Below are positions 37,285-56,683 of a DNA stretch of 64,000 bases, piece after piece. The first letter of the stretch is position 1. Each line of letters opens with the position of its first letter. The translations under genes were made by a program, and so were the position numbers. The notes beneath the pieces were generated by a model, which saw only the letters and a program-made list of their open reading frames with translations, was not told where the DNA came from and searched no databases. Origin of the DNA: Sulfuricurvum sp. (GTDB lineage: Bacteria > Campylobacterota > Campylobacteria > Campylobacterales > Sulfurimonadaceae); assembly GCF_028710345.1 (NCBI RefSeq), contig NZ_JAQTUH010000004.1, forward strand, positions 33,183-97,182. Direction: 5' to 3'.

Positions 37285-37301
37285 CTTAAAAGAGGATGAT
37301 T

Positions 37302-38279
37302 ATGAGACAAAGTATTTACGCTATTGTTGCCATATGTGTTTTTAGTGCAGAGCTTTATTCGCAATCTGCCCCGAGTAACAGCCAAGCAGAGAAAGCCAAA
37401 ATCGAGTTAGGGCGACGGCTGTTTTACGATGCTGACCTCTCTATCAACGGCACGATGTCGTGCGCAACATGTCATGAACAAAGACGCGCTTTTAGTGATG
37501 GCAACAGTCTCCATCCCGGAGCGCTGGATGACCCAGGCAAACGAAATGTTCCGGGATTAGCCAATGTTAGTCTGTATAAAAACTTGACATGGGCACACAA
37601 TCATCTTAGTGGTTTAGCTGAACAATCGTTTGCACCGATTAGAGGTACTGATCCCATAGAGATGGGGATGAATGCTCATGAGGATGAAATAACCAAACGA
37701 TTAGGTCAAAACAGCTGTTATCAAAAACTCTTTTCACTCGCGTTTAGTGAAGAAAAAGGTGCGATTAATTTAGGTGCTGTCTCAAAAGCGTTAGAGAGTT
37801 TTGAAAAAACATTGATTTCCAATGATTCTTTGTATGATCAAAAAATGAAAAGCAAACAGCCTTTACCAACCAAAGATGCCCAAGCGGGGAAAAAGTTGTT
37901 TTTTGGAGCGGCAAAATGCAACAGTTGTCACACTGCACCCCTCTTTAGTGATGATGATTTTCATCAAGTCCAACCACAAAATCAAGTAGCAGTGAATAAA
38001 ATCAAAGACAATGGATTATCCGATGTCACCGGTAACCCAAAAGATAAAAACTTTTTTCGTACCCCAAGTCTGAGAAATGCCGTTTTAACTGCTCCTTATT
38101 GGCATGATGGAAGCGCTAAAACACTCACCGAAGCTATCCAAAAACATGATGTAAAAATCAATCAAGCATTGAGTGAGAAAGAGATTAATAAGATTATTGC
38201 ATTTCTCCAAACACTGAGCGATACGTCATTTATTACCAATCCACAATACGCGAAACCAAGCCAAGAGTGCCCATACTGA
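37302..38279 (+). CDS. Di-haem cytochrome c peroxidase (MauG/CCP family)
   Basis: A periplasmic enzyme of 325 residues that in the family reduces hydrogen peroxide with electrons from c-type cytochromes. It has a Sec signal (MRQSIYAIVAICVFSAELYS) and two CxxCH haem sites: CATCH in the N-terminal half and CNSCH near residue 205. A distal haem ligand region (EMGMNAHEDE) and the C-terminal FFRTPSLRNAVLTAPYWHDG phrase are family features. ATG 37302 is preferred over 37296 because AGAGG then lies 6 nt upstream. It could be a MauG-like oxidase modifying the preceding protein instead of a detoxifying peroxidase. Confidence 0.9.
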   Translation: MRQSIYAIVAICVFSAELYSQSAPSNSQAEKAKIELGRRLFYDADLSINGTMSCATCHEQRRAFSDGNSLHPGALDDPGKRNVPGLANVSLYKNLTWAHNHLSGLAEQSFAPIRGTDPIEMGMNAHEDEITKRLGQNSCYQKLFSLAFSEEKGAINLGAVSKALESFEKTLISNDSLYDQKMKSKQPLPTKDAQAGKKLFFGAAKCNSCHTAPLFSDDDFHQVQPQNQVAVNKIKDNGLSDVTGNPKDKNFFRTPSLRNAVLTAPYWHDGSAKTLTEAIQKHDVKINQALSEKEINKIIAFLQTLSDTSFITNPQYAKPSQECPY

Positions 38280-38314
38280 GTTAGTATGGAGGCTCTAATT
38301 TCGTAAAATTGACG

Positions 38315-38692
38315 TTATTTTGACCCAAAAGAGTCAATTTTTTTTGCAAATCCTATCTCATTTAATCCGCCGATTTTTTGCTCTAACAATTTGCCATCGG
38401 CACTAAAAAAAAGAACATTCGGTGTAGCAAAAACCGAATAGTCGCTTCTCGCCTCTTCGTTAAAATCAAGATTGATATAAAAAAACTGCGCTTTTTCATT
38501 GTATTTTTGGTCCAATTTTTTAACGGATTCCATAGTAATTTTACAAAATGGGCAAGGATCATTACCCAAAACGACAACGGAATATTTCGAAGAATTTTTA
38601 ATTGCCTTTTTTACATTATCGTACGATGTAACTTCAATATTGGCGGCGAATAGTGATACCCCACAAACTAAACCGACAAAATACTTGAACAT
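38315..38692 (-). CDS. Periplasmic thioredoxin-fold protein (CPFC)
   Basis: A 125-residue exported thiol-disulfide protein. Sec signal MFKYFVGLVCGVSLFAAN, then a thioredoxin-like domain with active site DPCPFCKITM and cis-Pro in FATPNVLFF. CPFC is more typical of DsbC/DsbG-like or thioredoxin-like periplasmic proteins than of classic CGPC thioredoxin. The domain is minimal, with no dimerisation region. Convergent with the peroxidase gene. Confidence 0.85.
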   Translation of the reverse strand: MFKYFVGLVCGVSLFAANIEVTSYDNVKKAIKNSSKYSVVVLGNDPCPFCKITMESVKKLDQKYNEKAQFFYINLDFNEEARSDYSVFATPNVLFFSADGKLLEQKIGGLNEIGFAKKIDSFGSK

Positions 38693-38717: not shown

Positions 38718-39839
38718 TTACTGACCGCATCTTTTCGCTTTCTCTTCGATTAGCATCGTATTTAAAATAGAAAATACCTCTCTACTTGCTGATTCAGCAT
38801 CTTTAAAATAGGTCATTACATTGTGCGATTTTTCGCCACATGTTCCTGATTTTACACAATGTATTGCATCATGAATACGATCATGAACTATTTTATGAGG
38901 GGATTCAAGCTTGTTATAACTAGGGACAGAGCCAAAGACCTCTTTGCCCAAGCCATTATCATACCATTTGCCCAAACGGCATCCGTGATGATCGGCAAAT
39001 TCATCGTCTACACGATTCAAAAATACCGTTTTATACCCTCGGGATTTAAACAATAAATGATCGAGCTTCACCAGTACGATAAAAATTGAATACAAAATAT
39101 CGGTACTGTTACTATCTATCTCTGCTGTTCGATGCTGTTGTTCAAAAAGGGTATTTTGAAAATGTCCCAGCTTATTGCTAGACTCCGTAGAGATAGCCTC
39201 CATAGTACTGGAGCGTTCATCTATTTCCATCGTATTTTGCTTGAGGCTTTGAACGCTTATTTCAACCTCTTGGGTCGCTTTTTGAGTCCTCTCAGCAAGT
39301 TTACGTACCTCATCAGCAACTACCGCAAATCCACGACCATGTTCCCCCGCCCGCGCCGCTTCGATAGCAGCATTCAGCGCTAAGAGATTGGTCTGATCGG
39401 AGATATCTTTAATCAAACCGATAATTGTGCTAATTGATTCGACACTTCCGGTAAGCTGAGCAGCAGAACCGTAGTTACTCGTAATATTTTCGGCAAGAGT
39501 TTGTTGGATAGCAAGCATCTCTTTGATTTCACTATTGATTTCAGTAGATGATGCACGGTTTAGGCGATTCAGTTCCGCAATCTCTTTAAGCTCTTCCACA
39601 TCCCCCATAAGATCTTTTTGAAGCATGGATAGATCGTTTTCGCTCCCATGCACCAACCCCTCGGTTAATTCATGAATAAGGGTAAACATCACCTGAGCGG
39701 TTCGTGCGTCACTGGCCTCTGATTTTAGCTGCTGATTTTCTGATGACAAGTGCTCTTGGGAAGATTCCAATTCACGAATACGCGCATGAAGCGCTTCAAC
39801 TTCTTTGGATTGATCTATATAGCGTTGCTTATAAAACAT
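38718..39839 (-). CDS. Soluble methyl-accepting chemotaxis protein with CZB domain (TlpD-like)
   Basis: A 373-residue receptor with no membrane segment. An N-terminal coiled coil (about 8-45) precedes the MCP signalling hairpin, whose tip ([21 protein letters not shown], shown in part; residues 148-180) contacts CheA/CheW. A C-terminal zinc-binding CZB domain follows, with His261, Cys287 (GCRLGKWY), His315 and His319. In TlpD-type relatives CZB binds zinc and reacts to oxidants such as hypochlorous acid. It lies 72 bp beyond parA and has its own TATAAT, so it is probably separately transcribed but functionally tied to the chemosensory cluster. Confidence 0.92.
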
Positions 39840-39911: not shown

Positions 39912-40652
39912 TTATATTCTTTGAAGCAACTCTTCAACAAATCGATGATAGTCTTTTATCCCGCGTGAACGATCCGCATTATCAATAATGGGATTCCCCC
40001 CCTCAAACTGATTGGAAAGTTTCACATCAATCCCGATAGGAGAAAAAAATTTCTCTTCTCCAAACTGTACTTTGACTTTGGCAATTGCATCACGGTGTTC
40101 AGGGATGTGCAGATTAACCATCACCGGTAAAATACCGACATTTGGGGTAGATTGGTAGTTATTTGAAGCATGCTGATAGATAGCGCGCACCATCTGTCCA
40201 ACCGCTACGACCCCTAAATGGTGAGGGACAAAAGGAATAACCACCGCATCAGCAACCTCTAGAGCATTTTTGAGCAGGGCATCAAACGTCGGTGGGGTAT
40301 CGATTACCACATAATCAAAAAATTCATGAAGCATCTCATTGGCAAAACGATTTTTGAGAGTTCCGCGTAAATCACCGTTTTCATACACATCGAAAAACTC
40401 GGTTGCCGGAGAGAGGGTGAGTTGATCAAACACCGTCGGGACAAAGGTCTCACAAAGGGTTTTGCCAAAAAAGATAGAGTGAACACCGTTATCCAACGAA
40501 CTCGATGATCCTACCCCCATCGAGGCATGTGCTTGGGTATCAAAATCAATCAACAATACCGAACCCCGCTTAGCAAGCTCACACGCCAAATTAACCGCCG
40601 TTGTCGTTTTCGCCGATCCACCTTTGCGATTAGAAACAACAATCGTCTTCAT
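39912..40652 (-). CDS. ParA-family ATPase in the chemosensory cluster
   Basis: A 246-residue ParA/MinD-type ATPase. It has the deviant Walker A RKGGSAKTTTAVNLA (near 9-23), switch I region LLIDFDTQAHAS and Walker B VVIDTPPTFD. It overlaps the upstream CheW-CZB gene by ATGA, so it belongs to the operon. No ParB or parS is nearby, arguing against chromosome partitioning. ParA relatives encoded in chemotaxis operons (PpfA of Rhodobacter, ParC of Vibrio) place chemoreceptor arrays in the cell. With soluble receptors here, a PpfA-like role in spacing a cytoplasmic array is the best inference. Confidence 0.9.
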   Translation of the reverse strand: MKTIVVSNRKGGSAKTTTAVNLACELAKRGSVLLIDFDTQAHASMGVGSSSSLDNGVHSIFFGKTLCETFVPTVFDQLTLSPATEFFDVYENGDLRGTLKNRFANEMLHEFFDYVVIDTPPTFDALLKNALEVADAVVIPFVPHHLGVVAVGQMVRAIYQHASNNYQSTPNVGILPVMVNLHIPEHRDAIAKVKVQFGEEKFFSPIGIDVKLSNQFEGGNPIIDNADRSRGIKDYHRFVEELLQRI

Positions 40653-41422
40653 GCGACCGATTCATTAGGAAGTTTTATTGAGCTAACAACCACTACTAAC
40701 GACTTGTTATACTCTACAACGCCGCGCGTCTCTAAATATTCTCCAACTTTGACCTGATGCCTGTACGGTTTTATCTGCGATTCATCAAAACTGACAATAT
40801 CTTTGATCCCATCTACTTTGATGGCAAACAGTCCATTGGAGGAGCGATATATAAGTAGTTTTTGTGATTGGGCCGAAATATCATTACTCCGTCGTACCAT
40901 CTCACTAAGCATTTTCATCGTCTCAACATACACACCGTTGACAATCTCTGCGTTATAGCGATCCAATTTTTCCTCATTACTTCCAAGCTTTAAAAGTTCT
41001 GCACCGATCTCATGTAACTGCGCATGTACAGGGATAATTGCTCTTATAATCGCAAGCACTTCAGGATCATGGGCACTGAATGTATATATCCATTTTCCCA
41101 AACGACACAGATGAGGATCAAGGGCAAGGGCAAATGGCGTCCCCTCTCGCAACGATAGCTCGAGTGCTTGTACCCAATTTTGGTGATCTTTTATCACCTG
41201 ATTAAAGAGCTGCAATATTTGCTCTTCGTGTGTTTGCGTTTCACTAAGACGACGAAAACTGAGTACTTTTAGGGTGTAATCCTGATAATTCATCACCCCC
41301 TCAATATAAGGGTGTGCGTTAGCAAGAGGGGTAAGACGACCGATTTGATCGATACGCTCTACAGAATCAACCTCTATTGCGTACTGACTATTCCCAACAC
41401 TAAAAACAATAAAATCAGACAT
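40649..41422 (-). CDS. CheW interrupted by a CZB zinc-binding domain (1)
   Basis: A 257-residue coupling protein. Residues 1-60 are the first half of a CheW fold (FIVFSVGNSQYAIEVDSVER, then EGVMNYQDYTLKVLSFRRL). Residues about 68-145 form a CZB four-helix domain with its four ligands His80, Cys106 (CRLGKW), His133 and His137. Residues about 185-250 complete CheW (LLIYRSSNGLFAIKVDGIKD to VVEYNKSLVVVVSS). CheW bridges receptors and CheA, so zinc or an oxidant could modulate coupling directly. ATG 41422 has AAAGGA upstream. It overlaps parA. Confidence 0.88.
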   Translation of the reverse strand: MSDFIVFSVGNSQYAIEVDSVERIDQIGRLTPLANAHPYIEGVMNYQDYTLKVLSFRRLSETQTHEEQILQLFNQVIKDHQNWVQALELSLREGTPFALALDPHLCRLGKWIYTFSAHDPEVLAIIRAIIPVHAQLHEIGAELLKLGSNEEKLDRYNAEIVNGVYVETMKMLSEMVRRSNDISAQSQKLLIYRSSNGLFAIKVDGIKDIVSFDESQIKPYRHQVKVGEYLETRGVVEYNKSLVVVVSSIKLPNESVA

Positions 41423-41431
41423 ACAATTCCT

Positions 41432-41701
41432 TTATCCGCAATGGGTCTCGCTTAGTTCAAACCCCTCACAAACGCGTTGATATAGCTTTGGATAGCTACC
41501 AAATAAGAACTCCGCATTATAGAGTTTTTTGTATGCCAATATTAGTTGTAAAATTCCCAAATGGATATCATCACACTCACTAAAATCAAACAAAACAGAG
41601 GTCGGGGATGAGAGTTGTAAGTAATCACGGAGTGGGACGATCTCATCTTCATAGGTCACACCGCTAAAGGTTACTTGATAATTTTCTATAACCATAGACA
41701 T
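41432..41701 (-). CDS. Small STAS-like protein
   Basis: An 89-residue protein between the two CheW-CZB genes, starting 1 nt after the preceding stop. Strand-helix pattern and the phrase SVLFDFSECDDIHLGILQLI resemble STAS/anti-sigma-factor-antagonist domains, where a Ser or Thr at the start of the second helix is phosphorylated; here that position holds His or Asp, so classic phosphoregulation is doubtful. It may serve as an adaptor in the array. The assignment rests on pattern only. Confidence 0.6.
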   Translation of the reverse strand: MSMVIENYQVTFSGVTYEDEIVPLRDYLQLSSPTSVLFDFSECDDIHLGILQLILAYKKLYNAEFLFGSYPKLYQRVCEGFELSETHCG

Positions 41702-41702
41702 C

Positions 41703-42479
41703 TTACACCGCCTCTTTCATCGGCATAAAGACCGATTTGATAACATTAACGAGCTTATCATCCATATCGATCACACCACTGACCTCTAAAAAATTTCCCA
41801 TACCTTTTGCCGTCTCTACCGGCTTTATCATCGATGATTCGATTTGAACCATATCATCAATCCCATCAACTTTGATGGCAAAAAACTGATTGTCATTTTG
41901 ATAGATTAATAACCTTTGCATATAGCCGGATATAGATGAAGACATATCCCCCATTTTTTTGATTTCCCCGAGGGTTGTTGAATAAATAGCAACGATTTCT
42001 GCTCTGGCAAGCTCTAATGCTGCCTCCGGGTTACTCTCGCGTAATGCCAATATCTCTCGCCCTCTCTCATGTAGTTTTGCATGGGTTGGACGAAGCAGTT
42101 TGAGAATCGCTAAAATATCGGTATCATGTGTCGTATAAGCATCGAGCCATTTACCGAGATTACATGCATGAGGATCGGTAGTGAGGGCAAAAACGGTATT
42201 ATTTTCCATCGCCTCCATAAAAGCAGTTACCCATTTTTCATGGTCGTTTGCTACCCTCTTAAAAAGTGCTGCGATTTCCGTTTCATGCTCATCCATCGCT
42301 GTCATTTTACGAAAATTGACAATTTTTGTCACCCGATTCTCATACGACATCATCCCATCGATAAAAGGGTGAGCATTAGGAATATGGGTTATCGATGGGA
42401 TCTGAATAATTCGTTCAACATTCGCAACTTTCAGTGCATAATAATTGGTTCCTACCGTAAATACAATATAATCTTCCAT
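41703..42479 (-). CDS. CheW interrupted by a CZB zinc-binding domain (2)
   Basis: A 258-residue paralogue of the other CheW-CZB protein with the same layout. First CheW half, residues 1-60 (YIVFTVGTNYYALKVANVER). CZB has ligands His80, Cys106 (CNLGKW), His133 and His137 at identical positions. Second CheW half from about 188 (LLIYQNDNQFFAIKVDGIDD). The frame opens earlier, but ATG 42479 has AAGGGGA 5 nt upstream and a standard CheW start. It sits 10 bp after cheA. The two copies are clearly diverged, so the duplication is not recent. Confidence 0.88.
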   Translation of the reverse strand: MEDYIVFTVGTNYYALKVANVERIIQIPSITHIPNAHPFIDGMMSYENRVTKIVNFRKMTAMDEHETEIAALFKRVANDHEKWVTAFMEAMENNTVFALTTDPHACNLGKWLDAYTTHDTDILAILKLLRPTHAKLHERGREILALRESNPEAALELARAEIVAIYSTTLGEIKKMGDMSSSISGYMQRLLIYQNDNQFFAIKVDGIDDMVQIESSMIKPVETAKGMGNFLEVSGVIDMDDKLVNVIKSVFMPMKEAV

Positions 42480-42489
42480 ATTATCCCCT

Positions 42490-45210
42490 TTAACTTGCAT
42501 TCTGTAGATGTGATTGAAGCAAATGGGAAATTTGCAACATCCCCAATGGATCAATCACCATAATTATTTGACCGTTTCCAAGCAAAGCCGTACCGCTAAG
42601 AATTGGATGATTTTCCATAATTCCCTCCAGAGGTTTTTGAACCACTTCGAGTTGCCCCAATAAATCATTGACCACTACTGCTAACAAATTACCTTTAATA
42701 TTCAATACAACGATTGGAAGTGCTCTCTTTTCGAGCCCTTTCTCATCGAGCATCCCTTTGATAAATAACAACGGAATTACTTCCCCGCGTAAATAGATAA
42801 ACGGCTCATTTTGAAGATATTCGATTGCATTGGATTCGATTTTAACGGTTTCAGAAACACTCTCCATCGGAAACCCGTAATGGACATTATTCATTGATAC
42901 ATGAAGCAAAGAGGTGACCGCAAGCGACATCGGAATAGAGAGATAAATCGTGGTCCCTTGATTCGGTATGGTCTTGATTCGGATAGTTCCATTAAACGCT
43001 TCAATCGATTTTTTCACCACATCCATTCCCACGCCACGCCCGCTATATTCACTAATCACCTCGGCAGTAGAGAGCCCGGGTAGCATGACGAGTTCCGCTT
43101 TTTCACTATCACTCAGTGCATCAATTTGATCTAATGTTAATAGATCTTTTTCCAGCACTTTTTGGACAACACGATCAATATTTATTCCCGCGCCGTCATC
43201 ACGTATCTCTACGATGATTTTATCACTTTGAGAGTAGGCAGTGAGAGTAATCTGACCTTCGGGATTTTTCCCTTTTTGAACACGAATTTCAGGAGATTCT
43301 ATCCCATGATCGAGTGAATTTCGCATGATATGAATCATCGGATCAGCCAGCATCTCAATCATATTTTTATCGAGTTTCGTCTCTCCCCCTTCCATTGTTA
43401 AATTCACTTTTTTCCCAAGATTTTTGGAGATATCGCGCACCAATTTCGGATAACGGTCAAAGACATACGAAATCGGAAGCATCCGCATCGACATTATCAA
43501 ATCTTGAAGTTGTTCGGTAAGGCGGTTAATAAACGTATATTTTTCCATAATAGCCCGTTTTGCCCCATCTCCACTCATCTTATGGACACCATCTGCGAGA
43601 TAAGGGAGGGAATTTTTCGCTACTAGCAGCTCTCCCACGACATTCATCAAATGATCAATCGACTCTTGCTCAATTTTTACCGTTTTCCCGACAACCCCTT
43701 TTTTGGATGTTCCAGCTTTATCTTCTGTTTCAATTTTTTCACTCAAATGCTTTGGCTCAGAAGCAAGCGGTTTTATTATCGGCTCAACAACATCAGGGTG
43801 AGATTCTATCTCGTCAATAACCAACGTCTCAACAAAGATATTTTCTTGAATATTGACTTCTTTTACCGACTCCAACCCGAGTTCTTGTCGTAACCAGTGT
43901 ATAAGTCCTTCGCGAGTTTTAAAAGCATCTGGAGGGGATGAGACATACTCTTCGAGATAATAACTAACCATCGATTGTACACGTTCGAATCCTTCTGGTG
44001 AGTCAAATGCTTCGAGAGCTTGCAGCTGTTGCATTAAAATCTCATGCAAACGCTCTTGTGCTGCTTCATCAAGAATAATATTGCCACTCTGAGGTGACTC
44101 TTTAGGGGCTTCTTCTTCTATCCATAAACCTTTAAGGGTAAAAGCTTCTCCTTTAGGCAAGATATCGAAAAATGGTTTTAACTGTTTCAAATCATCCGCT
44201 TTTATCCACCCTAAAAGATCCAAAAGACGATTTAATTGATAGCTTTGAAGGGTATTAGAACCGATCAAGGGGAGTGAATTCTCTATTTTTTGAGCTATTT
44301 CTGAAACATTTCCACTCTCTAATAGCGTATTGCATTGGGCTCCAAGTTCTTTTAGGACATCGAGGGTGTGTCCTGATTCCCCCTCATCAATCTGTAGTAA
44401 TGTAGAGATATCAAGCGGCAAAAAAGTTAGTTCATCACTAAAGTTAAAGAGGGCATCGGCAATCTCATCATAGGTGGCGTAAACAAACGCACACATTTGT
44501 ATTTTAAGAAGTAATCCATCAGTATCATCAAATCCTGACAAAAGAGCTGTCGCTCCATTTTCACTCATGCACGAATGGACACCGACCACTTTATCCGCAA
44601 TTAACGAGAGGGTATAAACAGGGTCATTGCCATACACCATACACGATTCATCGACATCAAAGACGATTGCATAAAGTTGTGCTCGTGAGCATAAATCTTC
44701 ATCGATTTCATCTAACTTAAAAGGAATTTTTTGGGGGGAACTTCTCAAAAATGGCATTGGAATGTTGATGACATCCCCGATAATCGTAACCATAGCGTAG
44801 GGGCAACTCCACACTACTTCTTCAATCGTTTTACCCATCAACGAGCTCAGCTCCTGCGCTATTTCATCGATACGATTTTCATCAGCATCCACTATCTCAC
44901 CGCTCTCTTCTGCCGCTTCGATCAGATTAACCACCTCATCAAACGCATTATAAAGCGATTCCACCATCGCTTCTTGAAATTCAAGTTTTCCGGAACGCAA
45001 CATATCCAATAAATCTTCTGCGTGGTGTGTTATCCGTTTTACCGATTCAAAGCCAACGATTCCAGAGCCCCCTTTAAGGGTATGGGCAGCCCGAAATACA
45101 GAGTTAAGGAGTTCAGGATCTTCACCGCCGATATTTTCGATATGTTGATCTATAAATGCGAGATTTTCTCTCGCTTCCAGTAAAAATTGTTCAAGCAAAG
45201 GATCCATCAT
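42490..45210 (-). CDS. cheA: Chemotaxis histidine kinase CheA
   Basis: A 906-residue cytoplasmic kinase. The Hpt domain at the N-terminus has the phosphoacceptor His43 in AAHTLKGGSG. A long central part (about 130-500) is poorly conserved and replaces or contains the response-regulator-binding region. The dimerisation helix has HLMNVVGELLVAKN, followed by the ATPase with NSLDHGIESPEIR and GRGVGMDVVK, and the C-terminal CheW-like domain. Unlike the CheAY of Campylobacter and Helicobacter it has no receiver domain at the C-terminus. This suggests a chemosensory system other than the core motility one, with CheY proteins supplied as separate genes. Confidence 0.95.
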   Translation of the reverse strand: MMDPLLEQFLLEARENLAFIDQHIENIGGEDPELLNSVFRAAHTLKGGSGIVGFESVKRITHHAEDLLDMLRSGKLEFQEAMVESLYNAFDEVVNLIEAAEESGEIVDADENRIDEIAQELSSLMGKTIEEVVWSCPYAMVTIIGDVINIPMPFLRSSPQKIPFKLDEIDEDLCSRAQLYAIVFDVDESCMVYGNDPVYTLSLIADKVVGVHSCMSENGATALLSGFDDTDGLLLKIQMCAFVYATYDEIADALFNFSDELTFLPLDISTLLQIDEGESGHTLDVLKELGAQCNTLLESGNVSEIAQKIENSLPLIGSNTLQSYQLNRLLDLLGWIKADDLKQLKPFFDILPKGEAFTLKGLWIEEEAPKESPQSGNIILDEAAQERLHEILMQQLQALEAFDSPEGFERVQSMVSYYLEEYVSSPPDAFKTREGLIHWLRQELGLESVKEVNIQENIFVETLVIDEIESHPDVVEPIIKPLASEPKHLSEKIETEDKAGTSKKGVVGKTVKIEQESIDHLMNVVGELLVAKNSLPYLADGVHKMSGDGAKRAIMEKYTFINRLTEQLQDLIMSMRMLPISYVFDRYPKLVRDISKNLGKKVNLTMEGGETKLDKNMIEMLADPMIHIMRNSLDHGIESPEIRVQKGKNPEGQITLTAYSQSDKIIVEIRDDGAGINIDRVVQKVLEKDLLTLDQIDALSDSEKAELVMLPGLSTAEVISEYSGRGVGMDVVKKSIEAFNGTIRIKTIPNQGTTIYLSIPMSLAVTSLLHVSMNNVHYGFPMESVSETVKIESNAIEYLQNEPFIYLRGEVIPLLFIKGMLDEKGLEKRALPIVVLNIKGNLLAVVVNDLLGQLEVVQKPLEGIMENHPILSGTALLGNGQIIMVIDPLGMLQISHLLQSHLQNAS

Positions 45211-45217: not shown

Positions 45218-45589
45218 TTAAAGTTGCGCTTTTAACAAAAGCTGAAGATACCTTTTGAGCGAATCAGGCTTAATCGGTTTGGTCTCAAAAAGATTTGCCC
45301 CCACCTTAAATGCTTCAAGCTTATCCGTAGTCTCTTCTTGGGTAGTAATCATAATGACCGGGGTAAATTTGCCGCTAGGCTGTTTACGCAATTCACTAAT
45401 AAACGAGTACCCGTCCATAATCGGCATATTAATATCGACAAGATAAAGATCAATCTTATTATCCAATGTCTTCTCCAGTGCTTCCATCCCGTTTTCTGCT
45501 TCAAGTACGTTTATTCCCAAATCATTAAGAATAGTACGATGATAGCTACGTACTGTTTTTGAATCGTCGATTACCATTACTGTTGCCAT
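45218..45589 (-). CDS. cheY: CheY-like single-domain response regulator (1)
   Basis: A 123-residue receiver domain without output domain. Acidic pair VIDDSK, phosphoacceptor Asp52 in YLVDINMP, switch Thr in MITTQE and Lys in FETKPIKP. It lies directly before cheA (7 bp). It may act on the flagellar motor or serve as a phosphate sink for CheA. Two CheY proteins flank the CheZ-like gene. Confidence 0.92.
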   Translation of the reverse strand: MATVMVIDDSKTVRSYHRTILNDLGINVLEAENGMEALEKTLDNKIDLYLVDINMPIMDGYSFISELRKQPSGKFTPVIMITTQEETTDKLEAFKVGANLFETKPIKPDSLKRYLQLLLKAQL

Positions 45590-45599: not shown

Positions 45600-45974
45600 C
45601 TAAAAAAACTCTACGCCGTCATCATGATGCTCAAATTTACCGCTGAATGCAGAGTGCTTCTCTCGTGCTTGTTGAAGAACACTACTTAACTCTTCCTCTA
45701 TTGCCGATAAACACTCCAATCCACTACCTTCATTTTCACGTAATGTTCGTATGAGATTTTGAATATTCTCGATCATCTCAATCGTCGCATGCAGCTGCTG
45801 AGAAACTATATCTTGATACTGCATCGCTTCCAACGTCTCATCATCAAGAGTCAATCCATTTTTTTCAATATAACGGACAATACTCAATTCTGCTATACGA
45901 GTTAACTCAATCGTTTCACTCTCCACCGATTTGATATGCTCCAATGCTTCATCCAGTAGGTCTAAAGATTGCAC
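45600..45974 (-). CDS. Short CheZ-like phosphatase
   Basis: A 124-residue helical protein. The motif MQYQDIVSQQLHATIEMI matches the CheZ active helix, with catalytic-type Asp55 and Gln59 in the DxxxQ spacing. The C-terminus ends DDGVEFF, like the acidic, Phe-ending CheY-binding tail of CheZ, after a flexible stretch. It is far shorter than the 214 residues of E. coli CheZ. The start is GTG 45974 with AAGGG 7 nt upstream. Position between two cheY genes supports CheY-phosphate hydrolysis. Assignment is by motif and context. Confidence 0.72.
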   Translation of the reverse strand: MQSLDLLDEALEHIKSVESETIELTRIAELSIVRYIEKNGLTLDDETLEAMQYQDIVSQQLHATIEMIENIQNLIRTLRENEGSGLECLSAIEEELSSVLQQAREKHSAFSGKFEHHDDGVEFF

Positions 45975-45984: not shown

Positions 45985-46356
45985 TTATGGTAACCGCAAA
46001 ACGCGAGAAATCGCTTGCTTCAACTGTGTCGGATTAAACGGCTTTACCACCCACCCCGTAAGTCCAAGCGCTTTACCTTGTTGTTTCAGTTCATCGCGAG
46101 TCTCTGTTGTCAACATCAATACCGGAGTACGCGCCGTTGGAGCATGCGCCCGAATCCCCTGCAAAAATTCGAATCCATTCATCACCGGCATATTCATATC
46201 GGTAATAATCAAATCAGGTTTTAAACCACCTTGAATCTCACGAAGCGCATCGGTTGCATTTAAATATTGCTTTACACTGATAGGCATCGAGTCGGTTACC
46301 ATCCGAGTAGAGGCGAGTGCTGTCTCTGAATCATCAACAAATATTACTAACGGCAT
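45985..46356 (-). CDS. CheY-like single-domain response regulator (2)
   Basis: A 123-residue receiver domain with VDDSET, phosphoacceptor Asp53 in IITDMNMPVMNG, Thr in MLTTET and Lys in VVKPFNP. It is quite different from the other CheY of the cluster, so the two probably have different roles (motor output versus phosphate sink or other output). Downstream of cheR by 11 bp, same operon. Confidence 0.9.
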   Translation of the reverse strand: MPLVIFVDDSETALASTRMVTDSMPISVKQYLNATDALREIQGGLKPDLIITDMNMPVMNGFEFLQGIRAHAPTARTPVLMLTTETRDELKQQGKALGLTGWVVKPFNPTQLKQAISRVLRLP

Positions 46357-46367: not shown

Positions 46368-47198
46368 TTATTTTTGATAGATTAATGTGGAATCAATTTT
46401 TTTTGCCGTAAAGACCGAAGTAATACGGCTCATATACTCTGCATGACCAAGTAAAACATACCCGCCGATGTTAAGCATATCATAAAATGTCATTGCGACT
46501 TCTTTACGACTCGCATCATCAAAATAGATGAGCATATTTCGAGAGAAGATAATATCAAATTTTCCCAGTTGACGCATATGATTTTTATCAAATACGTTAG
46601 CAACTTTAAAGTCAACCGTTCCATGCAAATCTTTGATCAGATCATACCCAAATGGATGTTTTTTAAAATATTTTGCCAATATGGATGAGGGGACCGCATG
46701 AACCGAACGCTCCGAATATTTAGCAGCATTTGCTTTAGCAATGACATTGGAATCAATATCAACCCCCACCACCTCGATATCGCGCTCTTCGATCAAACAC
46801 CCCTCTTCAAGCAAATGTAAAATCACCGAATAAGGCTCCTCTCCGGTGGAACACGGTGCACATAATATCCGTATCGAAGATGGTTTTTCTCTACTCTCAT
46901 GCAGTTCCGGCAAAATACGGTTTACCAGTACTTCAAACTGCTCCTTTTCACGATAAAAATAGGTCTCATTGACAGTAACAGCATTCATAAGCGCTTGAAA
47001 CTCATGCCCCTCTTTATCCTCAAAACGGAGTGTGTAAAAATATTTTCGAAAAGAGTCTGCTTTGATAACTTTAGCACGGGTATCGATGTATTTGGCAAGC
47101 TTCTCAAAATGTTTTTCAGCTTCTAAAAATATCCCCGTTTTACGGTAGATATATTCAGACATTTTGGTAAAATCGACACCCGTTAAAAGATAACCCAT
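46368..47198 (-). CDS. cheR: Chemotaxis protein methyltransferase CheR
   Basis: A 276-residue SAM-dependent enzyme that methylates receptor glutamates. The N-terminal helical domain (about 1-80, VNETYFYRE) precedes the SAM fold with CAPCSTGEEPYSV, VVGVDIDSNVIAKA and IIFSRNMLIYFD. It lacks the C-terminal pentapeptide-binding extension of specialised CheR proteins. It is paired with CheB further upstream and separated from it by the HEAT protein gene. Spacing to that gene is 4 bp. Confidence 0.95.
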   Translation of the reverse strand: MGYLLTGVDFTKMSEYIYRKTGIFLEAEKHFEKLAKYIDTRAKVIKADSFRKYFYTLRFEDKEGHEFQALMNAVTVNETYFYREKEQFEVLVNRILPELHESREKPSSIRILCAPCSTGEEPYSVILHLLEEGCLIEERDIEVVGVDIDSNVIAKANAAKYSERSVHAVPSSILAKYFKKHPFGYDLIKDLHGTVDFKVANVFDKNHMRQLGKFDIIFSRNMLIYFDDASRKEVAMTFYDMLNIGGYVLLGHAEYMSRITSVFTAKKIDSTLIYQK

Positions 47199-47202: not shown

Positions 47203-47829
47203 CTACCCCCGAATCGCTTTTATCGTGGTATCCACGGCAAAATCAATATAGGGATCATGAAAACGTTCTTTGATACTCTCCAGCAATGGGATATCTCCAA
47301 TCTCTCCAATCTCCGATAAATAGTCAACTGCTGTCGAAGCGACATTGATATCAAGCTCACTTTCTAATAGCTCCACAAGCATCTCACGCGATTCCGCAAA
47401 ATTGACATCGCCCAAAACATTGATCGCAAAAATCCGAAGATCCCGATCATCTCCGATCAAAAACTTAACAATGTAATATCGTATTGCCTCCCCATAGCTT
47501 TGAAGAGTCGTAATTCCAAGATTTCGGATATAGGCATTACGAACGCTCAACAGCCCCATGATTGCCTCAATCGGTGCACGATCAGGTTCCATTGCAGTGA
47601 GAAGCGAGGAGATATAACTCGCCATATCTTTATCGATACGAGGATCATCGCTCATTAAGCTAACGAGCTTTATCCCACCTCCCTCAAAAAGTGCAATATT
47701 ATCGGTAGCATAACGCTGTGCATCCAAATCTCCTGCACTCTCTTGGTAAAACCTAATGGCATCCTCAAGAGATACTAAGTCAGGAAATTTTTGAGCTACC
47801 GGTGCAGTATGTTTTTTTATTAATGCCAT
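47203..47829 (-). CDS. HEAT-repeat protein in chemotaxis operon
   Basis: A 208-residue all-helical protein with about five HEAT-like repeats, for example AYIRNLGITTLQSYGEAI, DLRIFAINVLGDVNFAES and NVASTAVDYLSEIGEIGDI, each a helix pair around an Asp/Arg turn. Such proteins scaffold partners rather than catalyse. It lies between cheB and cheR with 4- and 11-bp gaps, so it is an integral part of the system. Its partner is unknown; CheR, CheB or the receptors are reasonable candidates. Confidence 0.8.
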   Translation of the reverse strand: MALIKKHTAPVAQKFPDLVSLEDAIRFYQESAGDLDAQRYATDNIALFEGGGIKLVSLMSDDPRIDKDMASYISSLLTAMEPDRAPIEAIMGLLSVRNAYIRNLGITTLQSYGEAIRYYIVKFLIGDDRDLRIFAINVLGDVNFAESREMLVELLESELDINVASTAVDYLSEIGEIGDIPLLESIKERFHDPYIDFAVDTTIKAIRG

Positions 47830-47840: not shown

Positions 47841-48899
47841 TTAGCGTAGTATTTGCAAAGAGCGTACTATTTTTGGAAATGGAAGCTGCTGGGACACGCC
47901 ACCACGTTCAAACGCCTCTTTTGGCATACCGTATACGGTTGCCGTCTCTTCGCTCTCACCAATCGTAAATCCACCCGCTTTTTTGATTTTTACCATCCCA
48001 TCAGCTCCATCATCTCCTATACCGGTTAACAATACCGCTGTAATCTGATCACCGGAAAAGACATTGAGGGCACCCTCAAACATCTCATCAACACTGGGCT
48101 GAAAATAGCGGTTATTTTTATTTTTCTCTTCTCGAACAACTATTTTTCCGGTCACTTTTTTGGCAAAATGGAGATGAACCCCTCCTCGTGCTAAAAAGAT
48201 CACCCCATTCGCAAGCTCCAAGTGATCCTTTGTCTCCACAACAGGGAGTGTGCTTACCCGATCAAGACGTGTCGCGAATGCAGCAGTAAACTGCTCCGGC
48301 ATATGCTGAACAACACAAACCGCATAGGGAAATCCGGCAGGAAGTGCCACACAAATTTTCTCAATCAGTCCCGGTCCTCCCGTAGAAGCACCAATAAGCA
48401 ATACTTTCGTGACCTCATCCGAAACAGCATGCGTTCCACGCACTTTTTCCCTAACACTCAGCGGACGTTCTCTTTGAATCGGGCGGCGAGCAACCGATTT
48501 GAGTCTGCGGGGAGGGATACGGCTGAGAGACTTAACTTTAGAGAGTATATCTTCTCTGTTTTCATTTCTTCCGACATTCATCGTCCCCGGTTTTGCAATA
48601 TAGTCAACCGCTCCCGCATCGAGTGCTTCCATTGTAATCCCTGCACTCTCTGTGGTGAGCGAACTAATCATCAAAATGGGTGTTGGACGTTCCTCCATAA
48701 TACGTCGAACCGCTGTAAGTCCATCGGTAACGGGCATATTGATATCCATTGTGATAACATCATACTGCGTCTCTATCGCCATCTTGATCGCCTCTTCACC
48801 GTTACGGGCTGTATGAATTTCAAAATCAAGTTCCGCAATAATCTCACTGAGCTGTTTACGAACCAATGCGGAATCATCCGCGATCAACACTTTTTTCAT
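47841..48899 (-). CDS. cheB: Chemotaxis methylesterase CheB
   Basis: A 352-residue receptor methylesterase/deamidase. Receiver domain 1-120 (IADDSALVRK, Asp52 in ITMDINMP, AKPGT). The C-terminal catalytic domain has Ser in LIGASTGGPGLIE, His in VVQHMPEQFT and Asp in LTGIGDDGADG, the expected triad. It overlaps the triple-CheW gene by 4 bp. CheA phosphorylation of Asp52 is expected to activate it, giving adaptation with CheR. Confidence 0.95.
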   Translation of the reverse strand: MKKVLIADDSALVRKQLSEIIAELDFEIHTARNGEEAIKMAIETQYDVITMDINMPVTDGLTAVRRIMEERPTPILMISSLTTESAGITMEALDAGAVDYIAKPGTMNVGRNENREDILSKVKSLSRIPPRRLKSVARRPIQRERPLSVREKVRGTHAVSDEVTKVLLIGASTGGPGLIEKICVALPAGFPYAVCVVQHMPEQFTAAFATRLDRVSTLPVVETKDHLELANGVIFLARGGVHLHFAKKVTGKIVVREEKNKNNRYFQPSVDEMFEGALNVFSGDQITAVLLTGIGDDGADGMVKIKKAGGFTIGESEETATVYGMPKEAFERGGVSQQLPFPKIVRSLQILR

Positions 48900-50260
48900 C
48901 TCTCAACTCCGATCAGTTTTGAGATCTCTTTATTAAATAATAATATCAACCGCTCTCCATTATTGAGACTTAATACATTCGAAAATATCGATTCACCACT
49001 CTCATCGGGATGTATTTCCGATTCACGGATTCCTAATACATCACTCACGCTGTTAACAAAAAATCCAATATTTCCCTGACATATCATAATTTTTTGATCA
49101 TGATCGATAAATGGATTTATTCCCAGTCGCTTATAAAGTGATCCTATAGTGATGATTTGTCCTCGTATATTAATCACCCCTTCTACTAAATCGGGTCCAT
49201 TAAACACGGGAGTTAAAGGTATCCTATCAATAATCTCCGCTACCTCTTCAATTGGAAAAGCATACTCCTCTTCCCCAAGTGTAAAGATCACTACTTCCAT
49301 AATCTCTTTATTTCTTTCATCATCCACATGACTGCCATTCAGAGGAATAAACTCTTCATTTCGCGCAATTAAGGTATCAACCAATTCAGCTCCTATCAGC
49401 GAAATTATCTCCTCTTTGTATCGGGCAACCCCTGCAATATGATTCTCATCATCATTGCGTAGATCAAGTTCACTATTACTAAACTCACGGATATCGACAA
49501 TCTCATCAACAATGGTCCCTAATGTTTTTCCATTACGTTCCAAGATTATTATTCGATTTTTATCATTTGATTGCGTCTCATACTGAAAATAGCGGCGCAA
49601 ATCAGCCACTAAAATCAACTCTTCACGGAGTGAAATCATCCCCTCTATCTCAAAATTAGCACCGAGAATAGGCGTTATAGGCGTATTAGTATTGAGGATT
49701 TCAGAGAGTTGATCAATCTTAATCGCATACTCTTCATTTCCCATTCTAAATACGACATAGCGTTGATAATCATCCTCTCTCGATGATTGGATTGCATCAA
49801 ATCTTTTTTTATCCCCTACAGAGCGCGGCATAGCTCCCACTTTTTGTATACGGTGCAATGCAGCTTCTATATCCACTACTTGAATCAGCTCATCATTTAC
49901 GTGGACAATTGCCAGTATACAATCGTCGCTATTATCAGCATATTCAACAGATGAGGGTTCAACCGAAACCGAAACACTCACCTCATCTACCAAAAAAGCA
50001 ATACCGTGAAAAGGTCCATTCAAAGTAATAATCCGATTTTTAGCCTCTACACCGCTGCAAGGGGTAAATCCCAAAAGTCTATTCAAATCCAACAGTGTTG
50101 AAATATTACCCCCAACAACACATAATCCACACACCTCTATAGGACTTAATACCAAAGGAGAAATATCAGGCACACGAAGAATTTGCTCAATAAATACCGT
50201 AGAAAGTCCAAAAGGATTTCCTGCGTGCCGTATGATCAATATTTCTTCGATAGGCATCAA
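48896..50260 (-). CDS. Triple CheW-domain coupling protein
   Basis: A 454-residue protein made of three CheW folds in a row: about 5-140 (EILIIRHAGNPFGLST, CVVGGNISTLLDLNRLLG), about 165-310 (YVVFRMGNEEYAIKIDQLSE, MISLREELILVADLRRYF) and about 325-450 (VVIFTLGEEEYAFPIEEVAE, VINIRGQIITIGSLYKRLG). The second and third are close to consensus; the first is more diverged. A protein with three coupling units could cross-link receptor trimers and kinases in a dense cytoplasmic array (inference). It lies 3 bp after the two-tip MCP and overlaps cheB. Confidence 0.9.
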   Translation of the reverse strand: MMPIEEILIIRHAGNPFGLSTVFIEQILRVPDISPLVLSPIEVCGLCVVGGNISTLLDLNRLLGFTPCSGVEAKNRIITLNGPFHGIAFLVDEVSVSVSVEPSSVEYADNSDDCILAIVHVNDELIQVVDIEAALHRIQKVGAMPRSVGDKKRFDAIQSSREDDYQRYVVFRMGNEEYAIKIDQLSEILNTNTPITPILGANFEIEGMISLREELILVADLRRYFQYETQSNDKNRIIILERNGKTLGTIVDEIVDIREFSNSELDLRNDDENHIAGVARYKEEIISLIGAELVDTLIARNEEFIPLNGSHVDDERNKEIMEVVIFTLGEEEYAFPIEEVAEIIDRIPLTPVFNGPDLVEGVINIRGQIITIGSLYKRLGINPFIDHDQKIMICQGNIGFFVNSVSDVLGIRESEIHPDESGESIFSNVLSLNNGERLILLFNKEISKLIGVER

Positions 50261-50263: not shown

Positions 50264-52150
50264 TTATCCTTGTTGAAGCTCGTCTGCCATAACGGCAAGC
50301 TCCTCAACACCCTCAGAGATATGATTCACTGTTTCAATGATAAGTTCACTTGCTTTACGAGATTCTTGCGCATTACGAGCAGATAGCTCTACTGCTTTTT
50401 GAATTTCGCTGATACCGATAAGACCTTGGTTCAACCCTTCAATATTTTGATCGTTTATTGATTTAAGTCCGGTAAAACGATCCAATAAATCAACCAACAT
50501 GGCTGTGATTTTGTCAATTTCAGTAACAAGGGCAGTAATTTGTTCCTTTTCTAGCTCTTGATTAACCAGAAGCTTTAACCATTCTGTGCGAACTGTATCG
50601 ATCTCTGCATTCATCGATTCGATAGTATCGTTAATTTTTTCGGTATTACTCTCAGAATCTTTAGCAAGATTACGGATATCGCTACTTACAACCGCAAACC
50701 CTTTCCCAAAATCCCCTGCTCGTGCGGCTTCAATCGATCCACTAATTGCCAACATATTAAGCTGAACAATACTTTTAGAGATACTGCCGACCGTTTTATC
50801 CACATTTCGGGTCTCTTTAATAATAACATTAAGCTCACTGCTCGCACTTCCACCTTCATTCATTGAGGCGGTAAAATCATCTCCTATCCCTATTATTTGA
50901 CCTTTTACATCGGCAAACGATATTTTAAGCAAATCAAAATTTCGGCGGACGATTTCTATCAGTTTAGCGATATCTTTGGAGGCTGAAACACCGCTTTCAA
51001 ATAACTCTTTATTGGCTATGGCACTATGATTTGTCGCTTGCGATGCCGATTCGATTTGATTGAGTCCCGTCGTTACCTCTTTGAGTGACATTTGAATATC
51101 TTCCATTGAAGAGCTGATCGCATCAGCAGAAGCTGCAATCTCTTCGGCGGATTTCATCGTATCGGTAGAATATTTGAGTTCTTCAGAGAGATTGTTGAGT
51201 TCTTTAATATCCTCTTCGGTTTGTATCAAAGAATTACTCTGCATCTCGATACTGTTTAATGTTTTTTCAACCGATTTAGCAATCTCACCCGATGCATCAG
51301 CAATCTCTTTTGAACCATCATTGATAAAAGTAATCGAATTGCTCAAGCTTTGTGTATACCCGCTCATAGAGCGTGCTGATTCAACCGAATAGGTAGCGAT
51401 TTTGGTCAGCTCTTCCATTTTTTGACTAAGTGCACTTCCGCGACCACCCGTTTGTTCTATAATATTAGTAGTTCTATTAATACTTTTAATGATTCCATCG
51501 ATACTCTCTTGGATTTTGTTAACCAAACGGGAGATAAACTCAGCATTTTTTTCCGATTCTCCCGCGAGTGCACGTGTCTCATCCGCTACGACAGCAAACC
51601 CTTTACCGTGTTCTTTTGCTCGACTCGCTTCAATAGCGGCATTAAGAGCTAACAGATTTGTTTGGTCAGCAATTTTGGCAATAAAACCAACCGCTTCACC
51701 AATATTTTCGGACGACAGCTTTAACTCTTCCGATTTTTTAGAAGAGACTTTCGCAACATGAACTGCTTTTGCCATACGATCAACGGAGGCATTAATCGTG
51801 CCAACTGAACTCACTATATTCTCACCTGCTGCCAGCGTAGAGCTAATAACTGTATCAATACTGCTCGTCATACGGGTTATATTGGAGCTAATAGCTCGAA
51901 CATTTTTAAGAGCTTGTTCACTCGCTCCGCTGTTCTCTTCCGCTGCAGTCGCGATTTGCTCCATGGAGCTTTTGAGCTGTTCAATCGCACTAACGCTCTC
52001 TTGCGCATTGTCCAAAATAGTTGTGGCAATCCCAGCTATACTCTCTGAAATTTGTTGTTGTTTTGCTAACGTCCGCTGCCGTCGTTTTTCGGGTCCTACA
52101 CTTCCATTCATCGATAAAGATGCACTATCTGATCTTCTTACTAATGCCAT
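50264..52150 (-). CDS. Soluble MCP with two signalling tips
   Basis: A 628-residue coiled-coil chemoreceptor with no membrane span and no recognisable ligand domain. The first MCP hairpin tip is canonical ([18 protein letters not shown], then [14 protein letters not shown], near residues 165-195). A second, degenerate tip (IVQLNMLAISGSIEAARA, then KGFAVVSSDIRNLAKDSE) is near 485-515. The N-terminal 30 residues are rich in Arg/Lys (MALVRRSD, EKRRQRTLAKQQQ), which recalls the basic N-termini with which ParB-like partners stimulate ParA ATPases. GGAGGAAATAAC precedes the ATG. Signals are probably passed on by the PAS protein encoded just upstream. Confidence 0.88.
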   Translation of the reverse strand: MALVRRSDSASLSMNGSVGPEKRRQRTLAKQQQISESIAGIATTILDNAQESVSAIEQLKSSMEQIATAAEENSGASEQALKNVRAISSNITRMTSSIDTVISSTLAAGENIVSSVGTINASVDRMAKAVHVAKVSSKKSEELKLSSENIGEAVGFIAKIADQTNLLALNAAIEASRAKEHGKGFAVVADETRALAGESEKNAEFISRLVNKIQESIDGIIKSINRTTNIIEQTGGRGSALSQKMEELTKIATYSVESARSMSGYTQSLSNSITFINDGSKEIADASGEIAKSVEKTLNSIEMQSNSLIQTEEDIKELNNLSEELKYSTDTMKSAEEIAASADAISSSMEDIQMSLKEVTTGLNQIESASQATNHSAIANKELFESGVSASKDIAKLIEIVRRNFDLLKISFADVKGQIIGIGDDFTASMNEGGSASSELNVIIKETRNVDKTVGSISKSIVQLNMLAISGSIEAARAGDFGKGFAVVSSDIRNLAKDSESNTEKINDTIESMNAEIDTVRTEWLKLLVNQELEKEQITALVTEIDKITAMLVDLLDRFTGLKSINDQNIEGLNQGLIGISEIQKAVELSARNAQESRKASELIIETVNHISEGVEELAVMADELQQG

Positions 52151-52229: not shown

Positions 52230-52658
52230 TTATTCCCAATTGGCATATAATGCCTCAGCTTTTTTTATCTCATCGCGCGTAGGCTTAATCCGAATAGAGG
52301 CATATTTAATATTTCCATTTTTATCGATAGAACGCATTACAGTCGCATATACCCAATAAAATCCTCCCCCTTTACGGGCATTTTTAACCATACCGGTCCA
52401 AAACCCTTTTTCTTGGATATCGTGCCACAATGATCTAAACGCAGCTCGTGGCATATCAGGATGACGAATCACGTTATGCGGTTGCCCTACCAAATCATCC
52501 TTACCCCATCCCGCAACGTTGTAGAACGAGTCGTTTGCATAAGTGATGATCCCTTTCTCATCGGTTTCACTCAAAAGATAGAGCTCATCATACATCACCT
52601 CTCCATCATCCATAAACATTAACCTATTGTTCTGAGTTTTTTCCTCGGGTTTAACCAT
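52230..52658 (-). CDS. PAS-domain protein (Aer/CetB-like)
   Basis: A 142-residue single PAS domain, first gene of the chemosensory operon. Motifs TDEKGIITYANDSFYNVAGW, VGQPHNVIRHPDMPRAAF and GFWTGMVKNARKGGGFYW are those of Aer-type PAS domains that bind FAD and sense redox state. In Campylobacter a separate PAS protein (CetB) works with a signalling-domain protein (CetA) in energy taxis; here the partner would be the two-tip MCP downstream. ATG 52658 is chosen over 52673 because GGAGGG lies 7 nt before it. Cofactor is inferred. Confidence 0.88.
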   Translation of the reverse strand: MVKPEEKTQNNRLMFMDDGEVMYDELYLLSETDEKGIITYANDSFYNVAGWGKDDLVGQPHNVIRHPDMPRAAFRSLWHDIQEKGFWTGMVKNARKGGGFYWVYATVMRSIDKNGNIKYASIRIKPTRDEIKKAEALYANWE

Positions 52659-52842
52659 TATTTTTCCCTCCATTAAGAGACTTAGCCATATGTAGCTTAA
52701 CGTTAGATTTCTAAATATACACTGAATAGAACATTATTTATTCTTATTGTCATTTTAAACGCCAACGGGGATAAAGGTCTGATTTGTCATAATGTCAACT
52801 CAAAAATTTGAACCCGTATTCTCTTAACTAAAGTACCCTTGT

Positions 52843-54932: not shown

Positions 54933-55464
54933 GGATTAACCCTTTTTCTTTGAGATGTTCACGAAGCAATACTTTCGCAAACCCGTGATTGGCGATAAAG
55001 TCCCGATGAGCATTGGCATCGCAATAGTTGGTGATACAAAAAACACCCCCAGCAGGGATACCGAAAACCTGAGCCACCCGCATAACACTAAAAAACTCCA
55101 TGTTTTCAATCCCCATCCCCAATGCTCTCATTTGCTCCATCGCCCTCTCACTCGTGGTGATGTAGTTGGAGCAGTTGACGATAACATCTTTGACGTTTTC
55201 AGTTTGCGCAGAAACGACGTTATCGATAGGGGTATAGGCACTTTTGTCCAAAAATCCTAACTCGATGTTAGCCGCTGTTTTAGACTCGATAATGTCGTTG
55301 ATTTTATGTTCACCATAACTCCCCGCACTCCCGACGAAGAGGAGAAATTCGGGTTTGTGAACCAAACAGTGTCGCGTGAGATTGATCGCACTGTCAATCA
55401 GCCCCACCCCTATCGGTATCGCAAAATCAAACGTTTCGTTATTGCCGGCACAGAGAATCATCAC
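54925..55464 (-). CDS. Nucleoside phosphorylase/nucleosidase-superfamily protein
   Basis: A 179-residue protein of the PNP/UDP phosphorylase fold, shorter than the usual 230-280. Signs are [35 protein letters not shown] and the substrate loop [20 protein letters not shown] (the MExF/Y pattern), with [12 protein letters not shown] holding the late Asp. It may be an MTA/SAH-nucleosidase-like or futalosine-hydrolase-like enzyme; menaquinone via futalosine is usual in this phylum, but the sequence does not decide. The start overlaps the mcrC 3' end by 26 bp and the end overlaps rlmN by 8 bp. Confidence 0.7.
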
Positions 55465-56683
55465 ACACCTTATTATTTAGTAAATCGAAGAATACTACTT
55501 TTAGATTTAGACCTTGATTTGATTCACAAGTTGATTGGTTAAAGTAATGGAAATGGTTTCCACTCACTTCTTTGTTTTTTGGATAGATCAGATACATATC
55601 TTTGCATTGCTCGTATTTTGTGCCATAAGCATAAAGCTGATACATATCACTTTGACTCACACCGTTATTGGTTTTTACCTCGTCTAAAATTTTCCATTTT
55701 GTATCGGCGATAATCATCTGTCCATCGTGATAAATAACGATGTCGGGTTTGAGTCTGAATTTCCCCGAACCGTTTTCATATGCCAAATGGTGTGTTTTAT
55801 CCTGAGTAGTGATGTGCTCATACTGTCGGCGCAAATACGCCGCTACATAGCTTTCAAATAGTAAATTCATATCAAATAAAAGTGCGAATGAAAGATCATT
55901 CCCTTTGTAGGGACTAAAGCTATTGTTTTCTAAAAATGTTTTGCACCAAATCAAAACTTGCTCATAATCCCTCATCTGCCGATTGAGTTTTACTTTAGAG
56001 AAATCGGTTTTAAAATCCACTGACGGCGCAATAGAATCGAATACAAACAAAAATTCTCGAATCCGTTGTTGATTACGATTGGATGTGGATCGCTTGTAGA
56101 GGTATTGCAATGAGCTTTTAATTAGCCGATTTTCGACACGATCACTGCTAAACTCTTCATATTCAACAAAAAATCGCTCTTTGTGGATAAAGTTTTGTTT
56201 AATATGCTCTCCCATTTTGAGCTTCCCTTTAAGAAAGGGGAGATTCTCTTCACGGGCTAGATAGTCACTCTTAATCCCACGCTGGATAAGTTTGGCAAGC
56301 TCATCCAAAAACATTGTGATAAATATCTCAAACAGAGGCATTTTAGCACTCTGCAAATGTGCCGAATTAAAACTCCGAAAAGGTGAGTTTCTGAGTGTCC
56401 GAAGCATTTTAAATAAAATCTCTTTTGCTTGTTTAGGGTCATCATTTTGGAAAATTTTAGGGAGAATTTCGATAGTTGTACCGTCTTTGGTTTGGATCAC
56501 TCCGACAAAATTTTGAGCCTGCAAAACTTTTCCAAACCCTTTTTTGGTGGTGAGTTTGAGATATTCGGCGGTTGGCTCGTTTTCGAGTACGAATTTTTCA
56601 ATCGCTTCAAAATTTTGGGGTGTGATATAGTGAGGTTTTAGTTCATCTTTGTATTGTAAGAAGTCATACTCTTTTATTATCAT
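55439..56683 (-). CDS. mcrC: McrC-family restriction subunit
   Basis: The nuclease partner of McrB in a GTP-driven modification-dependent restriction system. The 414 residues start with the McrC DNA-bridging region (QAQNFVGVIQTKDGTTIEIL) and end with a PD-(D/E)xK nuclease core: KFRLKPDIVIYHDGQMIIAD, followed by the Lys in TKWK, then SQSDMYQLYAYG. The start overlaps the mcrB stop by 4 bp. The last codons run 26 bp into the next gene, which suggests the defence block was joined to the resident rlmN/nucleosidase pair here. Confidence 0.9.
   Translation of the reverse strand: MIIKEYDFLQYKDELKPHYITPQNFEAIEKFVLENEPTAEYLKLTTKKGFGKVLQAQNFVGVIQTKDGTTIEILPKIFQNDDPKQAKEILFKMLRTLRNSPFRSFNSAHLQSAKMPLFEIFITMFLDELAKLIQRGIKSDYLAREENLPFLKGKLKMGEHIKQNFIHKERFFVEYEEFSSDRVENRLIKSSLQYLYKRSTSNRNQQRIREFLFVFDSIAPSVDFKTDFSKVKLNRQMRDYEQVLIWCKTFLENNSFSPYKGNDLSFALLFDMNLLFESYVAAYLRRQYEHITTQDKTHHLAYENGSGKFRLKPDIVIYHDGQMIIADTKWKILDEVKTNNGVSQSDMYQLYAYGTKYEQCKDMYLIYPKNKEVSGNHFHYFNQSTCESNQGLNLKVVFFDLLNNKVCDDSLCRQ

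Follow-up and report, generated by a model that had tools for sequence, protein, structure and literature searches.

The question raised by this locus is whether a sensor of zinc or oxidants can be built into the coupling protein of a chemosensory array. In the window, the stretch of 64,000 nucleotides of Sulfuricurvum sp. analyzed here, two genes on the minus strand encode accessory CheW proteins with a nested CZB domain: CheW1-CZB (40649..41422, 257 aa; CheW 1-64, CZB 71-146, CheW 185-257) and CheW2-CZB (41703..42479, 258 aa from its ATG). The two proteins are 42% identical, and CheW2 is the copy conserved across the F9 clusters of Campylobacterota. In both, the CheW match (PF01584) is interrupted after about 63 residues and restarts at about residue 185-187. 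The N-terminal half was located by Pfam at residues 4-67 in CheW1 and 5-68 in CheW2, and the CZB (PF13682, cut-off 29.4 bits) at residues 80-143 (40.9 bits) and 81-145 (43.6 bits), respectively, with a second CheW stretch following the CZB in each; the Pfam residue numbers for CheW2 are counted with one codon before the ATG, the listed open reading frame including an upstream TTG. When the CZB was excised in silico, a single unbroken CheW match was obtained for each protein, with 68.6 bits in CheW1 (profile positions 2-130) and 71.6 bits in CheW2 (profile positions 2-128). The domain scores for CheW and CZB are far above chance. Moreover, the complete 3His/1Cys set of ligands, His80, Cys106, His133, and His137 (HCHH), is present in both proteins. 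Both belong to the CheW-like family PF01584, to the CZB family PF13682 with its predicted zinc site, and to the CheW-CZB subgroup (PMC8262984). The coordinates, residues, and domain limits given in a first-pass annotation of this DNA were found to be right by open reading frames, Pfam, and alignment, and its description of a CheW fold split by a full CZB with four ligands is borne out by the Pfam matches and the excision. Its further statement, that the sensor is placed in the coupling protein itself, also holds, insofar as a predicted zinc-binding domain of the sensor type is nested within the CheW fold.

The nested architecture would have to be abandoned, as that annotation pointed out, if the two CheW halves were predicted not to form one domain. 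The fold was therefore analyzed in an AF2 model of the G017 orthologue of CheW2 (sharing 52% identity with the window protein; pLDDT 88.8, pTM 0.77), built from a nine-sequence alignment including both window proteins; a single-sequence model of the window CheW1, built with no alignment, was unusable (pLDDT 46), and the good model is thus that of the orthologue only. It can be observed that strands 2-56 and 190-251 superpose jointly on the CheW 9a72_B over 135 residues (Z 17.1, rmsd 1.9), with a Z of 16.9 against the CheW of 2ch4. The segment 66-183 aligns structurally with 3t9o, the CZB of DgcZ (Z 13.1, rmsd 2.6), a score to be read with caution, as is usual for helical bundles, for which the CZB sequence match provides independent support. 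According to the model, both CheW halves form one CheW domain into which the four-helix bundle of the CZB is set.

The two genes lie in one co-directional run on the minus strand, from a PAS gene (52673) to a CZB-bearing MCP gene (38718). The run begins with a single PAS-domain protein (52230..52673), followed by a DosM-like receptor (50264..52150), a triple CheW (CheW3, 48896..50260), CheB (47841..48899), a HEAT-repeat protein assigned by Pfam (47203..47829), CheR (46368..47198), a second CheY-like response regulator recognized by its open reading frame and neighborhood comparison (45985..46356), a conserved helical protein of 124 aa (45600..45974), a CheY-like response regulator (45218..45589), and the CheA kinase (42490..45210; Hpt, dimerisation, HATPase, and CheW/P5 domains). 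The PAS protein, CheB, CheR, and the latter CheY were assigned by domain profile matches. CheW2-CZB comes directly after CheA, and then a small conserved protein of 89 aa (41432..41701), CheW1-CZB, a ParA-family ATPase at the conserved end of the cluster (39912..40652, overlapping the CheW1 stop by 4 bases), and a TlpD-like soluble MCP with a C-terminal CZB at residues 261-326 (38718..39839, 51.4 bits). The gaps around the CheW genes are overlaps or about ten bases. The F9 class is defined by two proteins, DosM, which carries a tandem pair of signalling domains, and CheW3, in which the CheW domain occurs three times; F9 receptors belong to the 44H class (PMC9321776). Here, the DosM-like protein (MCPsignal, 174.5 bits) has two signalling tips at residues 173 and 473, 300 residues apart, and its C-terminal arm of 155 residues, or 22 heptads, fits the 44H receptors of F9; the triple CheW displays three CheW stretches (222 bits). 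From these genes, the window system can be identified as a cluster of the F9 cytoplasmic-array class, an identity that the first-pass annotation had missed.

This arrangement of genes recurs in Sulfuricurvum, Sulfurimonas, an Arcobacter MAG, and further families of the order. The 89-aa protein serves as a marker of the cluster and was present in 10 of 397 genomes in an even sample of the Campylobacterota phylum, and the F9 cluster of this type is therefore rare in the phylum. The marker resembles STAS by eye, has Asp45 and His47 invariant, and gave no match in Pfam or NCBIfam. For the 124-aa protein no family match was found; its YQDIVSQQ motif, read by eye as YQDxxxQ, recalls the active site of CheZ, and the protein could be a CheY phosphatase of F9 clusters. 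At one further locus (L146, G040 C129) the marker protein and ParA occur, while the 13 kb examined there revealed neither CheW nor CheA. Elsewhere in the window, at 55439-59083, a McrB/McrC-like restriction pair and a small HEPN-like protein were noticed by eye, which may represent a defence island.

It is in the comparison of relatives that the status of the CZB becomes clearer. Among clusters with a CheW beside CheA, chosen irrespective of the zinc motif, the CZB is intact in 10, the insert is present with broken ligands in 4, and no insert exists in 11, and the array thus works without the CZB. In place of HCHH, the four broken copies display LSHY (L045), YAQI (L046), YCFY (L139), and HCQY (L145), while the insert is full length (110 aligned residues) and the LG-x-W core is kept in all of them. 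Loss of ligands in orthologues had been named as evidence against the proposal, and it is partly observed: four orthologues are broken, but HCHH is intact in ten. Insert losses and decay that recur in this way contradict the notion of a CZB that the protein cannot do without. On a tree of eight other cluster genes, the state of CheW2 changes four times, a count that carries no direction between gain and loss, and the CZB-less clusters L055, L048-L054, and L143/L144 are nested among CZB-bearing ones. A single ancestral clade of CZB-less CheWs was rejected on the eight-gene backbone (AU p 8.5e-7), as was a single clade on the gene tree of the CheW core (AU p 6.5e-5); a grouping of L055 with the L048-L054 clade was also rejected (AU p 1.6e-5). 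The CheW core tree recovers the same groups as the eight-gene tree, with a root that is not to be trusted, the outgroup L121 being attached by very long branches. The CZBs of the F9 CheWs form a single clade with a support of 99, and the junctions differ between the CZB-less groups. The simplest history would be one old gain of the CZB with at least three independent later losses; regain of the CZB by recombination at the same site would be a less simple one.

The paired copies behave in an all-or-none manner. CheW1 appears to be a duplicate that arose within the Sulfuricurvum group. Of the clusters with two CheWs, six have both zinc sites intact (the window, L039, L040, L041, L042, and L064), and in the other six (L045, L049-L052, and L054) no usable site is left; related species do not count as independent cases, and the pattern represents at least two concerted changes, one in L045 and one in the L048-L054 clade. 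Where it is intact, the CZB is well preserved. Between L039 and L041 its dN/dS is 0.042 in CheW2 and 0.072 in CheW1, values quotable for such close pairs only, since dS is near saturation in most pairs. Between the window and L039, the CheW1 proteins share 73% identity in the CZB and 59% in the CheW part. The decayed copies, compared with L042, retain 33-36% identity in the CZB and 61-63% in the CheW core; in L046, at 33% and 63%, respectively, the Pfam CZB match is gone in a profile search. Judged by these substitution patterns, the intact CZBs of F9 CheWs are under purifying selection.

Nearly all of the accessory CheWs also differ from canonical ones in a conserved pair of residues. In canonical CheW, the Glu38-Arg62 salt bridge fixes the geometry between the receptor and kinase sites; in the R62A mutant both partners are still bound and chemotaxis is impaired, and the invariance of the pair was shown for class F7 (PMC3828127). 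The window proteins carry Arg-Glu (CheW2, as Arg23 and Glu47) and Arg-Gln (CheW1) at these positions and do not have the canonical pair. Among F9 accessory CheWs, with or without CZB, Arg-Glu occurs in 38 of 55 rows and Arg-Gln in 12 of 55. Glu-Arg is retained in the P5 domain of CheA and in two of the three triple CheW domains of the same cluster, and the CheW-CZBs outside F9 mostly have Ser-Arg or Glu-Arg. Since the invariance refers to F7, the missing pair lowers the confidence in "canonical", not in "CheW fold". The Glu38/Arg62 pair seems to be preserved in reversed order, and we infer that the reversed pair may mark a separate baseplate slot or partner. More broadly, it can be speculated, in a reading we consider unlikely, that the F9 systems of Campylobacterota possess a charge-reversed class of coupling proteins whose own slot acts as a port for signal input, where a zinc/redox sensor has been plugged in, disabled, or removed. 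If this were true, coupling proteins instead of receptors would be the evolving input layer of the cytoplasmic array.

On this basis, CheW1 and CheW2 are proposed to be accessory coupling proteins of the F9 array of DosM, CheW3, and CheA, to which they would supply a zinc or thiol-redox input; we prefer this proposal to the others and give it an even chance of being right. The array would be double-layered and cytoplasmic, consist of DosM, CheW3, and CheA, and be positioned by ParA. It should be noted that 98% of DosMs have no sensory domain and that such arrays need further receptors or sensory proteins (PMC9321776); with a scaffold of this kind, a signal can enter through the baseplate. Zinc would be bound at the HCHH site, and loss of zinc or oxidation of Cys106 would change the CZB. 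The change would be transmitted by the two short linkers to the CheW domain, which, once incorporated into the F9 baseplate, would alter CheA geometry and, through it, the transfer of phosphoryl groups to both CheYs.

The decayed copies bear on a different explanation, in which the CZB serves chiefly for structure or dimerisation, zinc, if present, only holds the bundle together, and no regulated sensing occurs. The four copies with lost ligands that keep the full insert and the LG-x-W core are what such a module would leave, and the CZB of DgcZ is indeed a homodimer (PMC8262984). However, the decayed CZBs drift faster than the CheW core, as under relaxed constraint, one of them is past recognition by Pfam, and complete excision of the CZB has been tolerated at least three times, so that we regard a mainly structural role as possible but rather doubtful. 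Nor does the array itself have to be the F9 one. Three CheA genes are present in the genome, and one adaptor protein can serve more than one array; CheW1 and CheW2 might therefore serve an F3 or F7-type array, with the CZB providing an input to flagellar chemotaxis and the F9 location being historical. Against this, in several genera CheW2 holds the same place in the F9 cluster, following CheA, its phylogeny agrees with that of eight other F9 genes, and the reversed Glu38/Arg62 pair argues for specialised partners; an assignment to another array is accordingly very improbable.

The first-pass annotation went further than a sensor in the array, and read the two CheWs and the adjacent MCP-CZB as three CZB sensors of one dedicated zinc or hypochlorite/redox response. 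The MCP-CZB gene is indeed encoded in the same run, 72 bases past ParA, which places three CZB genes of the same strand inside 4 kb, and orphan CheW-CZB genes outside any F9 cluster adjoin a TlpD-like MCP gene in L044 (G032 C45) and in L121. The dedicated response is nevertheless not sustained. The genome of the window holds 18 CZB domains, the highest count among 41 genomes of the genus (3-18), with 15 of them lying elsewhere in the genome, and the MCP-CZB is missing beside most related F9 clusters, and thus is not a conserved neighbour. Its tip-to-CZB distance of 102 residues is the same in all CZB receptors examined in the genome, by which an F9-specific receptor recognizable by length was rejected. 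Furthermore, hypochlorite is an oxidant of host defence, and Sulfuricurvum and Sulfurimonas are free-living sulfur oxidisers, for which it would not be expected; zinc or other thiol oxidants would be likelier stimuli. We therefore consider the dedicated three-sensor response improbable. A dependence of the CheW-CZB state on the genomic number of CZBs was set aside, as the counts overlap. Beside the MCP-CZB, at 37296-38692, a di-haem cytochrome c peroxidase-like gene and an exported thioredoxin-like protein (CPFC) were noticed by eye.

For the proposed zinc or thiol-redox input to the F9 array, the present locus offers a favorable case. The F9 arrays of V. cholerae have been visualized with no stimulus assigned to them, and the missing input could, concretely, come from a predicted zinc/redox domain borne by CheW. 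Nature provides ready controls in the form of orthologues whose zinc site is present, absent, or dead, their clusters being otherwise equal. The case also bears on how a scaffold protein of a tightly packed array can gain or lose an internal domain with the array left unharmed.

The CheW-CZB architecture is already known, and its F9 setting is new. CheW-CZB is one of seven CZB subgroups, comprising 1.4% of 10,140 sequences and most abundant in Clostridia (Perkins et al., mBio 2021, PMC8262984), with the same two domains in one protein as in the window CheWs, and is listed among the known CheW fusions (PMC10653840). In the literature search it was named in these two papers, with no other mention found, and in the CheW-CZB literature searched no description was found of the nesting, F9 arrays, paired copies, the series of loss and decay, or the reversed pair. 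A single CZB peptide pattern, which contains the Cys and hence leaves zinc-dead copies outside its reach, was scanned against approximately 85,000 species and gave 204 places, 128 of them encoding relatives, from which the best 80 loci were kept. Most of these best 80 of 128 loci, distributed over Desulfobacterota, Clostridia, Magnetococcales, Planctomycetes, Gammaproteobacteria, and others, have the CheW N-half before the CZB and CheW-type sequence after it; by Pfam, a Desulfobacteraceae protein has CheW on both sides of the CZB and an Acetobacterium protein has it before the CZB. Nesting in so many phyla indicates that the architecture is widespread and not special to the window. In the same best 80 of 128 loci, F9 cluster genes were not seen beside the CheW-CZBs of other phyla, which keep Glu/Ser-Arg, whereas the F9 CheWs have Arg-Glu.

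Among characterized systems, F9 cluster I of V. cholerae (DosM VC1403, triple CheW VC1402, CheA VC1397) shares the two-tip DosM, triple CheW, CheA, CheB, CheR, and CheYs, and its arrays are cytoplasmic and two-layered, with a function that is unknown (PMC7534058). By published description, on which this comparison is based, the V. cholerae baseplate is made of CheA and the triple CheW, whereas the clusters analyzed here also encode single CheWs with a CZB, the 89-aa protein, and ParA. CheWS of Treponema denticola, a CheW-CheR-like SAM sensor, is likewise a coupling protein that brings its own sensor into the CheA/CheW ring, and has been proposed to feed a SAM signal via the baseplate (PMC10653840). 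Its sensor is CheR-like, fused at the C-terminus, and belongs to a membrane array, whereas the CZB of the window proteins is nested inside the CheW fold. DgcZ of E. coli and TlpD of H. pylori have the same CZB fold and 3His/1Cys site; zinc is held very tightly by the DgcZ CZB, whose Cys is reactive toward HOCl, and the output is thereby controlled (PMC8262984). In these two proteins the CZB stands at a terminus, with a diguanylate cyclase or a receptor under its control, whereas in the window CheWs it is nested within the coupling protein.
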